64,000 nt of DNA, from the NCBI RefSeq assembly GCF_011947225.1, contig NZ_JAATVW010000017.1:1-64000 (forward strand). Direction: 5' to 3'. The notes below the pieces were generated by a model, which was not told the DNA's origin, did not search any database, and saw only the letters and a program-made list of their open reading frames with translations. Position 1 is the stretch's first letter; each line of letters opens with the position of its first letter. Both the position numbers and the translations under genes were made by a program. Of the stretch, positions 17,484-40,430 are shown one piece after another. This DNA is from Planosporangium flavigriseum (GTDB lineage: Bacteria > Actinomycetota > Actinomycetes > Mycobacteriales > Micromonosporaceae).

Positions 17484-17577
17484 GCCCAGCGCCCCCCGGC
17501 GTCGAAGAGACAAATATGCGGGCTTCACGTTAGCGGCCGGTGCATCGTACGCCGCGTCGGGGGTACCCGGAACCCCT

Positions 17578-18102
17578 CTAGGCGACTTCCGGCAGTCCGA
17601 GCCACCCCGTCCAGCGCGGATCAGCCGCCCGATGGCCGAGTACCCGCCATGCCGTACCCTTCGGCGCGCTCGGTGCCGCGTGCAGCCGCCAGCCCAGCTC
17701 CGCCAGGGTGCGGTCGCCCTTGGTGTGATTGCACTTGGCACACGCCGCGACCACGTTGTCCCAGACATGGGCGCCGCCGCGGCTACGCGGCAGCACATGG
17801 TCGATCGTCTCGGCCGGGCCGCGGCAGTAGGCGCACCGGCTGCCGTCGCGGGCGAAGATCGCCCGGCGGGAGAGGACGACGTGGGTGCGGTAGGGCACCC
17901 GGACGTACCGGATGAGCCGCACGACGGACGGGACGGGCAACTGGGAACGGATGCTGTGCAGCACCCCATCGCCGTCGGTGACGCACACCGCCTTGGCGGA
18001 TAAGACCAGGATCGCGGCTCGTCTGACGGACACGACGCACAGCGGCTCGTACGTGGCATTGAGTACCAGGGTGGTGCCGACTGTGGGTCGTATGTCAGGC
18101 AT
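17578..18102 (-). CDS. HNH endonuclease (Rv2469c-type)
   Basis: This 174-residue HNH nuclease-fold protein has an N-terminal domain (LVLNATYEPLCVVSVRRAAILVLSAKAVCV) typical of this actinobacterial group. The HNH core follows with CAYC (zinc), TIDHVLPRSRGG (catalytic His), HVWDNVVAACAKCN (second zinc pair) and HTKGDRT. It is probably a housekeeping or repair nuclease rather than a mobile-element enzyme, since it is in the conserved pepN-glbO block. The ATG start gives MPDIRPTVGTTLVLN. 94 nt separate it from the small membrane gene downstream. Confidence 0.9.
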   Translation of the reverse strand: MPDIRPTVGTTLVLNATYEPLCVVSVRRAAILVLSAKAVCVTDGDGVLHSIRSQLPVPSVVRLIRYVRVPYRTHVVLSRRAIFARDGSRCAYCRGPAETIDHVLPRSRGGAHVWDNVVAACAKCNHTKGDRTLAELGWRLHAAPSAPKGTAWRVLGHRAADPRWTGWLGLPEVA

Positions 18103-34161: not shown

Positions 34162-34995
34162 GTGAATGGACCGGCGTCAGGACTGCTGGAGCTGTTCGAC
34201 GGGCAGCGGCTCACGCCGGCCCAGCGGCGCATCGCGCAGTGCCTGGTCGAGCACGCCGCCGACGCCGCCTACCTGTCCAGCGGTGAGCTGGCCGAGCTGG
34301 CCCAGGTGAGCCAGCCCAGCGTGACCCGGTTCGCCGCGGCGCTGGGCTTCGACGGGTACCCGGGCCTGCGCCGCCGTCTCCGGGAGCTGACCGCGGGCAC
34401 ACCCCGGCCCGCTGACGAGCACAACGAGGCACAGCGGGCCGTCCTCGCCGAGGCCGGCAACCTCGCCCGGCTCGCCGAGTCGCTCGCCGACCGCCGCCCG
34501 GTCGAGGAGGCGGGCAAGCTGCTCGCCGCCAGCCGGCCGCTGCCCGTACTCGGACTGCGCGCCGCCGCGCCGATGGCCGCCTACTTCGGGTACTTCGCCG
34601 CGAAGGTGCACCCGGACGTGCGGGTACTCGACACCGGCGGCAGCGCGTGCGCGGATCGGCTGGAACAGGCCCACGCGGCCGGCGCGACCGCCATGCTGGC
34701 GTTCGTGCTGCCGCGATACCCCAGGGAGGCCCACGACGCCATACGGGAGGCCAGGCACCTCGGCCTGTCCACGATCGTCGTCACGGACTCCCCCGTGAGC
34801 CCCGTCGCCGACGACGCCGACCTGACGCTGGCCGCCGCGGTCGGGTCCCGGCTCGTGTTCGACCTGCACACCGCGCCGCTGGCGCTCGCCGGCGTGCTGC
34901 TGCAGGCGATGTGCGACGCGGCGCCCGCACAGACCCAGTCCCGGCTGGAGGCGTTCGAGCAGTCGGCCGCCCGCCGCCAGGTCTTCCTGCCCTAG
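34162..34995 (+). CDS. RpiR/MurR family regulator, probable hut regulator
   Basis: This 277-residue regulator has an N-terminal RpiR helix-turn-helix (about 10-80, LTPAQRRIAQCLVEHAADAAYLSSGELAELAQVSQPSVTRFAAALGFDGYPGLRRRLREL). A C-terminal SIS domain (about 110-255) binds a sugar phosphate or another small ligand. It is the first gene of the unit with hutU 9 nt behind, so it probably controls histidine utilisation and may sense urocanate or a related compound (inference). Translation is probably from a leaderless mRNA (promoter 34126-34155). Confidence 0.88.
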   Translation: MNGPASGLLELFDGQRLTPAQRRIAQCLVEHAADAAYLSSGELAELAQVSQPSVTRFAAALGFDGYPGLRRRLRELTAGTPRPADEHNEAQRAVLAEAGNLARLAESLADRRPVEEAGKLLAASRPLPVLGLRAAAPMAAYFGYFAAKVHPDVRVLDTGGSACADRLEQAHAAGATAMLAFVLPRYPREAHDAIREARHLGLSTIVVTDSPVSPVADDADLTLAAAVGSRLVFDLHTAPLALAGVLLQAMCDAAPAQTQSRLEAFEQSAARRQVFLP

Positions 34996-35004
34996 GAGGT
35001 AGTC

Positions 35005-36663
35005 GTGGACCCGATCCGCGCCGCGCGCGGTACCGAACTGTCGGCCCTCGGCTGGCAGCAGGAGGCCGCGCTCCGCATGCTGCACAACAACCTCGACCCC
35101 GAGGTGGCCGAGCGCCCGCAGGACCTCGTCGTGTACGGCGGCACCGGCAAGGCCGCCCGCGACTGGCCGTCGTTCCACGCGCTGACCCGCACGCTCCGGT
35201 CACTGCGCGACGACGAGACCATGCTGGTGCAGTCCGGCCGCCCGGTGGGCGTGTTCCGTACCCATGAATGGGCCCCGCGTGTGCTGATCGCGAACTCCAA
35301 CCTGGTCGGCGACTGGGCGACCTGGCCCGAGTTCCGCCGCCTGGAGGCGCTCGGGCTGACCATGTACGGGCAGATGACCGCCGGCTCCTGGATCTACATC
35401 GGCACCCAGGGCATCCTGCAGGGCACGTACGAGACGTTCGCGGCCGTGGCGGCGAAACGGTTCGGTGGGTCGCTGGCAGGGACCCTCACGCTGACCGCCG
35501 GCTGCGGCGGAATGGGCGGCGCGCAGCCCCTCGCGGTCACGATGAACGACGGGGTCTGCCTGGTCATCGACGTGGACGCCGCCCGACTGCGGCGTCGCGT
35601 CGACACCCGCTACCTCGACATGGTGGCGAGCGACCTGGACGAAGCCCTGGCGACGGTCCTGAAGGCCAAGGCGGAGCGCCGGGCGCTGTCGGTCGGCGTG
35701 GTGGGCAACGCCGCGACGCTCGTACCCGAGATCCTGGCCCGCGGCGTCGGAGTCGACATCGTCACCGATCAGACCAGCGCGCACGACCCGCTGTCCTATG
35801 TACCCGAGGGCGTCGACCCGGGCGACGCGCCGGACTACGCGGCGAAGAAGCCGGAGGAGTTCACGGACCGGGCCCGCGCGTCGATGGCGAAGCACGTCGA
35901 GGCGATGGTCGGATTCCTGGACGCGGGCACCGAGGTGTTCGACTACGGCAACTCGATCCGGGGCGAGGCGAAGCTGGGCGGCTACGAGCGGGCGTTCGAC
36001 TTCCCCGGCTTCGTGCCGGCGTACATCCGGCCGCTGTTCTGCGAGGGCAAGGGGCCGTTCCGGTGGGCGGCGCTCTCCGGCGACCCGGCCGACATCGCCG
36101 CCACCGACCGGGCGATCCTCGAACTCTTTCCCGAGAACGAGTCGCTGGCCCGGTGGATCAGGATGGCCGGCGAGCGGGTGGCGTTCCAGGGGCTGCCGGC
36201 GCGCATCTGCTGGCTCGGGTACGGCGAGCGGGACAAGGCCGGTCTGCGGTTCAACGAGCTGGTCGCGAGCGGAGCCGTAACCGCGCCGATCGTGATCGGC
36301 CGCGATCACCTGGACTGCGGATCGGTCGCGTCGCCGTACCGGGAGACCGAGGCGATGCGCGACGGCTCCGACGCGATCGCCGACTGGCCGCTGCTCAACG
36401 CCCTGGTCAACACGGCGAGCGGTGCGAGCTGGGTCAGCATTCACCACGGCGGCGGCGTCGGGATCGGCCGGTCCATCCACGCCGGCCAGGTCACCGTCGC
36501 CGACGGCACTCCCCTCGCGGCGCAGAAGATCGAACGGGTACTGACCAACGACCCCGGCATGGGCGTGATCCGGCACGTCGACGCCGGGTACGAGCGTGCC
36601 GAGCAGGTCGCCGCCGAGCATGGAGTACGGGTACCGATGCGGGAGTCCGATGATGTCACCTGA
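35005..36663 (+). CDS. hutU: urocanate hydratase
   Basis: This 552-residue enzyme catalyses the second step of histidine degradation, urocanate to imidazolonepropionate, with NAD+ as bound electrophile. The N-terminal [29 protein letters not shown] and [15 protein letters not shown] are family signatures. The catalytic Cys is in [17 protein letters not shown] (about C434) and the NAD loop GWVG-like region is intact. GTG 35005 has the perfect AGGAGG ribosome binding site 5-6 nt upstream. Full length and apparently functional, unlike hutI and hutH downstream. Confidence 0.96.
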
Positions 36664-37861
36664 ACGCTTCGCCGCGCTGTGGCGCTCGCTGCTGCCGATC
36701 GGCCGGGACGGGCGCGACGGCGGGTACCTGCGCCGCTCGTGGGGGCCGGCGGACCTGGAGTGCCGCGAGTGGTTCGTCGAGGAGGCGCTCGACCGCGACC
36801 TGACGCTCGACCCCGACGGCAACGGGAACCTGTTCGCCTGGTGGGGAGACCCGACCGCCGGGGACGCTGTGGTAACCGGCAGCCACCTGGACTCGGTACC
36901 GCACGGCGGCGCGTACGACGGCCCCCTCGGCGTGGTCTCCGCGCTGCTCGCGGTCGACGAACTGCGCGAGCGGGGCCGCAAGCCCCGGCGCCCCATCGGG
37001 CTCGCCGTCTTCACCGAGGAGGAGGGGGCCAGGTTCGGCGTCGCCTGCCTCGGCTCCCGGCTGCTCACCGGCGCGATCGACCCTGCCCGGGCCCGGGCCC
37101 TGACCGACCGCGACGGCCTGACCCTCGCCGACGCGATGACGAAGGCCGGCCACGAACCACTTGACCTGGGCGCCGACCCCGAGCGGCTGGGCCGGATCGG
37201 GGCCTTCGTCGAACTGCACATCGAGCAGGGCCGCGCGCTGACCGACCTGGACGCGCCCGTCGGGGTCGGCAGCGCGATCTGGCCGCACGGCCGCTGGCGG
37301 ATGGAGTTCACCGGCGAGGCCAACCACGCCGGTACGACCCGGACGGCCGACCGGCGCGACCCCATGCTGGCGTTCGCCGCAGCCGTACTGGCCGCGAACG
37401 AAGAGGCCCACCGGCAGGGTGCGCACGCGACCATCGGCCGGGTCGAGGTGACGCCCAACGCCACCAACGCGATCGCCTCGTCGGTCGCCGCGTGGCTGGA
37501 CGCCCGCGCGGCCTCCGCCGAGGCCCTGTCATCCCTGGTGGCCGCGGTGCGGGAACGGATCAACGAGCGGGCCGCCGCCGTCGGCACGGGCTTCGCGATG
37601 ATCGCGGAGTCCGAGAGCCCGATCGTCGAGTTCGACTCCGGGCTGCGTGACCGGATCGCGGCGCGGCTCGGCGGGGCGCCGGTGTTGCCGACCGGCGCCG
37701 GCCACGACGCCGGCGTGCTGTCGGCGCACGTACCGACGGCGATGCTGTTCGTACGCAACCCGACCGGGGTGTCCCACGCACCGACCGAGTACGCCACCGA
37801 CGCCGACTGCGCGGCCGGGGTGACCGCCCTCGCGGACACGTTGGAGGAGTTGGCGTGCTGA
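36653..37861 (+). CDS. M20 family amidohydrolase (allantoate amidohydrolase-like) in the hut operon
   Basis: This 402-residue zinc amidohydrolase is of the hydantoinase/carbamoylase group. Metal and catalytic motifs are [19 protein letters not shown] (His, Asp), [10 protein letters not shown] (Glu pair), HIEQG (His) and [11 protein letters not shown] (His). The dimerisation-domain region [10 protein letters not shown] is also present. No hutG is present here. HutF yields N-formylglutamate, so this enzyme probably performs formylglutamate hydrolysis to glutamate and formate (inference from position; the family name refers to allantoate). It overlaps hutU by 11 nt; GGGAG lies 7 nt before ATG 36653. 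ATG 36650 is an alternative. Confidence 0.85.
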
Positions 37862-39171
37862 ATCGCTACTGGGCCGAACACGCGCTGCTCAACGGCGCTG
37901 CGGCTCAGGGCGTGCTCATCGAGGTCGACGACGGGCGGATCACGGCGGTCACGCCGGGGGCTTCTGATCGGGATGCCGTCCGGCTACCCGGCCTCACCCT
38001 GCCCGGGCTGGCCAACGCGCACTCGCACGCGTTCCACCGGGCGCTGCGCGGCCGTACCCACGACGGCAGCGGCACGTTCTGGACCTGGCGGGACCGGATG
38101 TACGCCCTGGCCGACCGCCTCGATCCGGACAGCTACTACGCCCTCGCCCGCGCCACGTACGCCGAGATGGCCCTCGCCGGGGTCACCTGCGTGGGCGAGT
38201 TCCACTACCTGCACCACTCCCCCACCGGCTCGCCGTACCCGCTTCCCAACGCCATGGGCTCGGCGCTGATCCAGGCAGCCGCAGCTGCCGGCATCCGGAT
38301 CACGCTGCTCGACGCCTGTTACCTGACGTCCAGCGTGGACGGGAAACCGCTGGCGGGCCCGCAGCGCCGCTTCGGTGACGGCAACGCTTCGCGCTGGACA
38401 GCACGGGCGGCGACGATCGAACCGGCCCCGCACGCGAAGATCGGCGCCGCGATCCACAGCGTCCGGGCCGTACCCGCCGATCAACTCGCCACGGTCGCCG
38501 ACTGGGCGGCGGAACGCGGGGCCCCGCTGCACTTCCACCTGTCGGAGCAGCGCGGCGAGAACGACGCCTGCCTAGAGTTTTATGGACGCACCCCGACCGA
38601 GGTGCTCGCCGATGCCGGCGCGCTCGGGCCCGCCAGCACCGCCGTACACGCCACCCACCTCACCGACCTTGACCGTACCGAGCTGGGCGACACCGAAACG
38701 GCCGTCTGCCTCTGCCCCACCACCGAGCGCGACCTCGCCGACGGGATCGGCCCGGCGCGGGCCCTCGCCGACGCCGGCAGCCCGCTCTGCCTGGGCAGCG
38801 ACAGCCACGCGGTGATCGACCTGTTCGAGGAGGCCCGCACGGTCGAGCTGGACGAACGGCTGCGCACCGAGCGCCGGGGCCACTTCGACGCCGCCGAGCT
38901 GTTGCGGGCGGCCAGCAGTGCCGGCCACAAAGCGTTGGGCTGGGACGACGCGGGCGTCATCGCGCCCGGCGCGCGGGCGGATCTGGTGACGGTCCGGCTC
39001 GACTCGGTCCGCACCGCTGGCGTCGAGGCAGGACCGGCGGTGGTCTTCTCCGCCGGCGCGGCAGACGTGTCGCACGTGGTCGTCGACGGGAGGGTGATCG
39101 TCCGCGACGGCGTTCACCGGTCGATCGACGTTGCCGCCGAACTCGCCCGGTCGATCGGGGCGCTGTGGTGA
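37855..39171 (+). CDS. hutF: formimidoylglutamate deiminase
   Basis: This 438-residue amidohydrolase-superfamily enzyme deiminates N-formimino-glutamate to N-formylglutamate and ammonia in the five-step hut branch. The metal site is [13 protein letters not shown] (HxH), the substrate region is [15 protein letters not shown] supplies the third His, and the Asp ligand is in [21 protein letters not shown] 37855 overlaps the preceding stop by 7 nt. The next gene, hutI, starts by GTGA overlap at 39168. Full length. Confidence 0.95.
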
Positions 39172-40430
39172 GCCTTCTCGTCACCAACCTCGGTGAGCTC
39201 GTCACCAACGATCCAACGCTGGGCGACGGGCCGCTCGGACTGCGCCGCGACGCCGCGATCGTGATCGAGGACGGGCGCGTGGCCTGGATCGGAGACGCAG
39301 CAGCCGCCCCCGCCGCAGACGAGCGGCGAGACGCCGAAGGGCGGGCCGGACTGCCCGGGTTCGTCGACAGCCACGCCCATCTCGTCTTCGCCGGGGACCG
39401 CGCGGCCGAGTTCGCCGCGCGGATGGCCGGCGAGCCGTACACCGGCGGCGGCATCCGCACCACCGTCGCGGCCACCCGCGCCGCCAGCGACGACGCGCTT
39501 CGCGCCAACGTGGTGCGCCTACGCCGCGAAGCGCTACGCCAGGGCACGACCACGATCGAGATCAAATCCGGGTACGGGCTGAGCGTCGCCGACGAGGCCC
39601 GCTCGCTGCGGATCGCGGCCGAGTTCACCGACGAGACCACGTTCCTCGGTGCGCACGTGGTGCCCGCCGATCGCGAGCCCGACGACTACGTCAAAGACGT
39701 GTGCGGGGAGATGCTGGCCGCCTGCAGCCCGTACGCGAAATGGGTCGACGTCTTCTGCGAGCGCGGCGCGTTCGACGGCGAGCAGTCCCGCGCGGTCCTG
39801 ATCGCCGGCCGCAAGGCGGGCCTGGGCCTGCGCGTGCACGCCAACCAACTCGGCCCCGGGCCCGGTGTGCAACTGGCCGTCGAACTGGGCGCGGCGAGCG
39901 CCGATCACTGTACCCACCTGACCGATCAGGACGTCGCGGCGCTGAGCGGCTCCGGCACCGTCGCCGCTCTGCTGCCCGGTGCCGAGTTCTCGACCCGCTC
40001 GCCGTACCCGGACGCACGCCGCCTGCTCGACGCGGGCGTGACCGTCGCCCTCGCCACCGACTGCAACCCCGGCTCGTCGTACACGTCGTCGATGCCGTTC
40101 TGCATCGCCCTCGCGGTCCGGGAAATGCGGATAACCCCGGCGGAAGCGGTCCACGCGGCGACCGCCGGCGGTGCGCGGGCGCTGCGCCGCGACGATGTGG
40201 GCCGGCGCCGCTCGCCCACTGCGCCCTGGTCGCAATGGGCGAAGGCTGGGCGCTCGGCAAGGACGGCGCCCGCCTCGGTGCGGCGGAGGCGCTGCAGTCG
40301 GCCGGACTGCGACCGATCGAGCTGGCGGCCAAGGAGGGGCTGGCGCTCATCAACGGCACCGACGGCATGCTCGGCATGCTGCTGCTGGCCCTGTACGACC
40401 TCGCCCACCTGCTCACCATGGCCGACCTGA
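39168..40430 (+). pseudogene. hutI: imidazolonepropionase remnant, C-terminus lost by fusion to hutH
   Basis: Residues 1 to about 345 (to position about 40203) are a good Hut[19 protein letters not shown] (metal HxH and substrate Arg), [36 protein letters not shown] and [15 protein letters not shown]. After ALRRDDVG the expected C-terminal strand segment (about 45-55 residues) is absent. The DNA passes directly into hutH sequence in another frame, so the open frame reads about 75 unrelated residues to 40430. HutI normally has about 390-420 residues. The active-site residues remain but the folded barrel is probably incomplete. The GTG overlaps the hutF stop. Confidence 0.8.

Follow-up and report, generated by a model that had tools for sequence, protein, structure and literature searches.

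The proteins closest to those considered here are well represented among described families, HutI, which hydrolyses imidazolonepropionate, by TIGR01224 and the solved structures 2bb0 and 2oof, and HutH, which converts histidine to urocanate, by TIGR01225, PF00221 and the solved structure 1b8f. Pseudogenes that arise by an end-joining deletion across two adjacent genes are likewise of a known general kind. In the window, that is, the whole stretch of 64,000 nucleotides of Planosporangium flavigriseum DNA that was analysed, both hut genes are recognizable and both are incomplete. The HutI protein scores above its family cut-off and aligns to 2bb0 and 2oof, but its last 40 residues are exchanged for a 75-residue out-of-frame tail, and the HutH remnant aligns to 1b8f chain residues 145-503 but is devoid of the first 147 residues, the MIO triad included. 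The joint between the two resembles those of end-joining pseudogenes in its short or absent homology and in the truncation of both neighbors, and we found no specific difference from that kind. Collectively, we read the locus, as it stands in one draft assembly, as a real and recent deletion across the hutI-hutH junction that disabled both genes, with a probability of about 0.8. The deletion represents ordinary pseudogene formation, a loss-of-function event.

The rest of the cluster, all of it on the forward strand, is preserved. In agreement with the original prediction, which had hutU, hutF and the M20 enzyme retained, profile matches identify intact genes for urocanate hydratase (hutU, 35005..36663; TIGR01228, 902.8 bits), an M20-family amidohydrolase (36635..37861; NF006770, 639 bits, and Peptidase_M20) and formimidoylglutamate deiminase (hutF, 37855..39171; NF006681, 655.7 bits), the last of which aligns to all 438 residues of HutF of G002, a genome of the same genus. 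Located 5' of hutU is a gene for an RpiR-type protein (34162..34995; HTH_6, with SIS just below the cut-off), which is likely the hut regulator. The M20 gene (allantoate amidohydrolase-like) is flanked by hutU and hutF not only in the window but also in 11 of 11 relatives tried (G001 to G003 and 8 named loci), and its product may carry out the final hut step. A separate match to the FGase family (PF05013) is found in the same genome (G000:C1:44891-45556).

Comparison with the intact locus in relatives, to which the original prediction had pointed, defines what is absent. The genus set comprises four genomes, including that of the window (G000). In two congeners, G002 and G003, the order hutF-hutI-hutH is the same as in the window, hutI and hutH are both intact, and 558 bp more lie between the matched edges; the two comparisons agree, with alignments breaking at 40202 and 40204 and a DNA identity of 80-88%. 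In G001, hutH is placed ahead of hutU. Of 39 named loci examined (L022-L060), 38 encode HutI upstream of HutH at a distance of at most 200 bp; HutI was not found in the remaining one (L060). A 4-nt overlap (ATGA) places hutI and hutH of G002 in different frames, and a deletion whose length is divisible by three does not change this. The original prediction described the deletion as fusing hutI to hutH; the frames do not match, however, and no HutI-HutH fusion protein is encoded.

From its start at 39165 to its stop at 40430, the hutI frame has 421 codons, of which 346 (39165..40202) belong to HutI. This part matches TIGR01224 at positions 3-335 of 377 with 348.7 bits, above the cut-off of 298.15, leaving positions 336-377 unmatched, and aligns to residues 7-373 of 421 in 2bb0, with ATDCNPGSS opposite ATDFNPGSS. 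The alignment to HutI of G002 extends to 40202 and covers residues 1-360 of 400, so that the C-terminal segment is incomplete by 40 residues; the following 75 codons plus stop (40203..40430) are hutH read in the wrong frame and bear no relation to HutI. With its C-terminal segment lost and an unrelated tail gained, the protein is probably unstable or inactive.

HutH homology begins at 40205 with APLAHCAL, in a frame other than that of hutI, and continues to 41302 (residues 148-512 of 512; PF00221 positions 138-459 of 466, 411.2 bits). The edges and frames of both homologies are thus those originally described. The count of lost codons held for hutH, for which 145-150 had been given and 147 were measured, and was too high for hutI (about 50 against 40 measured); the net loss relative to G002 is 558 bp. 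Against TIGR01225, the remnant reaches 442.0 bits, short of the equivalog cut-off of 539.15. Within the 147 missing residues, HutH of G002 carries Ala-Ser-Gly at 143-145 and YGVSTGFG from residue 54; from work on Pseudomonas putida HutH, we take these to be the MIO triad and the site of the N-terminal catalytic tyrosine. Both elements are absent from the remnant, and the intact congeners support the deletion and the loss of the MIO motif. The HutH frame is open upstream to a GTG at 39701, over a stretch of hutI read out of frame. Within the homology, the earliest start codon is the ATG at 40235, and inspection by eye of the 16 bases preceding it revealed no evident ribosome-binding site. The remnant shares 93-94% identity with the HutH proteins of G002 and G003 and 61% with that of G001, and its nearest named matches come from Micromonospora, Actinoplanes and their kin, which probably points to the Micromonosporaceae, in a comparison from which records of the same or a very near genome were perhaps left out. 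Two contigs titled 'MAG: Bifidobacterium breve' (L081 and L089) carry a HutH 64% identical to that of the window, and their organism label looks doubtful.

The joint itself (40203..40204) reads GATGTGGGC on the left side, then CG, then GCGCCGCTC on the right. The C at 40203 fits neither edge in G002 and neither in G003, so that an exact base-by-base tracing of the joint is impossible; were either genome to represent the ancestor, the two sides would have no base in common. Among the 38 relatives whose hutI end could be read, 12 have CGG as the codon after the glycine at the hutI break; if the ancestor was of this type, the C at 40203 would derive from the left side and 2-3 bases would be shared, giving a range of 0-3 bp of possible microhomology overall. 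Taking the intact relatives as a stand-in for the ancestor, exact direct repeats lying within 300 bp of the breakpoints reach a length of at most 13 bp (G002) or 11 bp (G003), and the sequences around one breakpoint have no more than 8 bp (G002) or 6 bp (G003) in common with those around the other, offset from the joint. Repeat-mediated deletion was therefore rejected, no explanatory repeat being present at the window joint and none exceeding these lengths in the relatives. The lack of a repeat fits end joining and argues against collapse by the assembler, and the Ku gene present in the genome is compatible with that mechanism. Presumably, the final 40 codons of hutI and the first 147 codons of hutH were lost in one recent event, a deletion of about 560 bp whose ends were joined at little or no homology.

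The remnants bear no mark of age. No internal stops are found in hutU, the M20 gene, hutF, or the hutI and hutH remnants. Private codon changes, given as synonymous/nonsynonymous for the window, G002 and G003, amount to 35/4, 45/4 and 43/4 in the hutH remnant and to 37/10, 39/20 and 29/8 in hutI, compared with 40/14, 37/25 and 40/14 in hutF, 32/9, 19/11 and 47/27 in the M20 gene, and 3/1, 10/3 and 20/3 over the 107 comparable codons of hutU. The hutH remnant shows 4 nonsynonymous changes, where 79-91 would be expected in the absence of constraint along the entire branch. The one-sided 95% bound on the unconstrained share of the branch is at most 0.07-0.08 for hutH and about 0.02 for hutI. Given that selection on the hutH remnant is not relaxed, the loss would date to at most roughly the last 8% of the branch to this genome, a rough estimate from codon counts on three sequences under a simple mutation model, with no outgroup and with constraint gauged against the two congeners. 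The best reading is that the hut deletion is very recent. Early operon decay, one of the possibilities raised originally, does not describe this state: a lone lesion with no internal stops and no relaxed constraint in the remnants points to a young event.

The assembly comprises 5,719,918 bases (5.72 Mb) in 85 contigs and is 99.14% complete. It contains a single PF00221 match and hence no second hutH, and among its 21 TIGR01224 matches only the window hutI passes the cut-off, the next best reaching 38.1 bits. Queried with the G002 DNA spanning the missing stretch, the assembly yielded the left flank (40113-40202) plus three weak hits, 51-115 bases long, and not the stretch itself. A second hutH or hutI, which the original prediction had allowed for, and a missing stretch placed on another contig were accordingly both rejected. 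The suggestion that the strain lives on external urocanate is weak and less likely, because the truncation also affects HutI, the enzyme acting after HutU.

Could the genome carry an intact hutI-hutH pair from which the draft, through an assembly or library artefact, dropped 558 bp? The fragmentation of the draft into 85 contigs and the presence of a PF00221 match in 350 of 354 genomes of the family favor such an artefact; a lesion with no decay in either remnant is also what it would be expected to look like, and a chimeric read at a thinly covered spot is compatible with a repeat-free joint. Against it stand the absence of a long collapsible repeat at the joint (at most 13 bp or 11 bp in the relatives that serve as stand-in, G002 and G003 respectively), the absence of the missing stretch from every other contig and the integrity of the matched neighboring ORFs. 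Between about 250 and 55763, the window is collinear with a contig of G002, apart from several differences of gene size. Of 43 G002 ORFs chosen by length and GC3, 34 were matched in the window at an identity of at least 55% (lower pieces were dropped), each as one piece, 4 of them covered over 85-94% and the rest over 95% or more; 9 had no match. The hutF, hutI and hutH genes of G002 fell outside this filter and were compared separately. Among all genes in this comparison, only the hut lesion leaves two of them truncated. Misassembly, which the original prediction had listed, is thus made less likely by the joint and its clean surroundings, and we consider it unlikely while retaining it as the main competitor of a real deletion.

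Poor sequence quality across the window was rejected, all 34 matched ORFs being unbroken. Four gene-content gaps relative to G002 were also examined. The idea that they correspond to insertion sequences in G002 was dropped, the three ORFs scanned being kynureninase-like, a glycosyltransferase and one with no Pfam match. The kynureninase-like gene, missing at 17576-17578 of the window, has an 81% identical copy in G001; the genome of the window and G003 hold only homologues of about 35% identity, and the gap edges at 17577 look diverged.

The other reading to be weighed against a real loss of function is that the remnants remain under selection because the 421-residue HutI chimera, the MIO-less HutH piece, or both are functional, for example through residual HutI activity or with the HutH piece serving as an inactive partner subunit. 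The constrained substitution ratios in both remnants speak for it, as does the portion of HutI that is kept, which passes the family cut-off and aligns to 2bb0 with ATDCNPGSS included. The same ratios, however, are explained by a recent deletion with no need for a new function, the first ATG of the HutH piece has no evident ribosome-binding site by eye, and the HutI tail is out-of-frame sequence; we regard retained function as extremely improbable. That histidine catabolism was lost adaptively and very recently in a lineage whose family nearly always has hutH, leaving behind a chimeric HutI and an MIO-less HutH with some remaining activity, is very improbable as well.

Within the family, the lesion is unusual, because full-length HutH is so widespread. 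Judged by the best match per genome, which leaves extra broken copies beside an intact one uncounted, PF00221 is matched in 350 of 354 genomes and unmatched in G165, G166, G287 and G359; the best E-value is worse than 1e-170 in three of the 350, namely G000, G008 and G156. In G156 and G287, the HutH piece runs to within 2 and 14 bases, respectively, of a contig end, and G008 has only a 38% identical HutH homologue, so that none of the three offers a clear parallel to the window. No other internally truncated hutH was seen among the best PF00221 matches listed for the 354 genomes, and our search found no literature on histidine together with hutH in Micromonosporaceae. An order-level relative, G035, has an intact HutH match and a second, split HutH-like gene (L120, G035:C23:18500-22800), which occupies two frames separated just past the MIO region and reads LGTGDLAP in place of the usual LGASGDLAP, denoting either a pseudogene or a sequence error. 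In the Actinoplanes liguriensis hutH, a run of 254 N (L059:6940-7193) is a scaffold gap and not a real insertion.

Finally, the lesion bears on what the strain can do with histidine. By the established mechanism, a HutH without the MIO-forming Ala-Ser-Gly and the N-terminal catalytic tyrosine should not deaminate histidine; with residues 1-147 absent, no MIO would form and the step from histidine to urocanate would be blocked. Hydrolysis of imidazolonepropionate is probably blocked too, HutI lacking its end. It follows that the strain probably cannot use the hut route to break down histidine or urocanate, which would leave the intact hutU, M20 gene and hutF almost without a role. Because HutI, though shortened, scores above its family cut-off, automatic naming may label the two ORFs hutI and hutH, in which case a metabolic model would assign to the strain a histidine degradation that is very probably absent.
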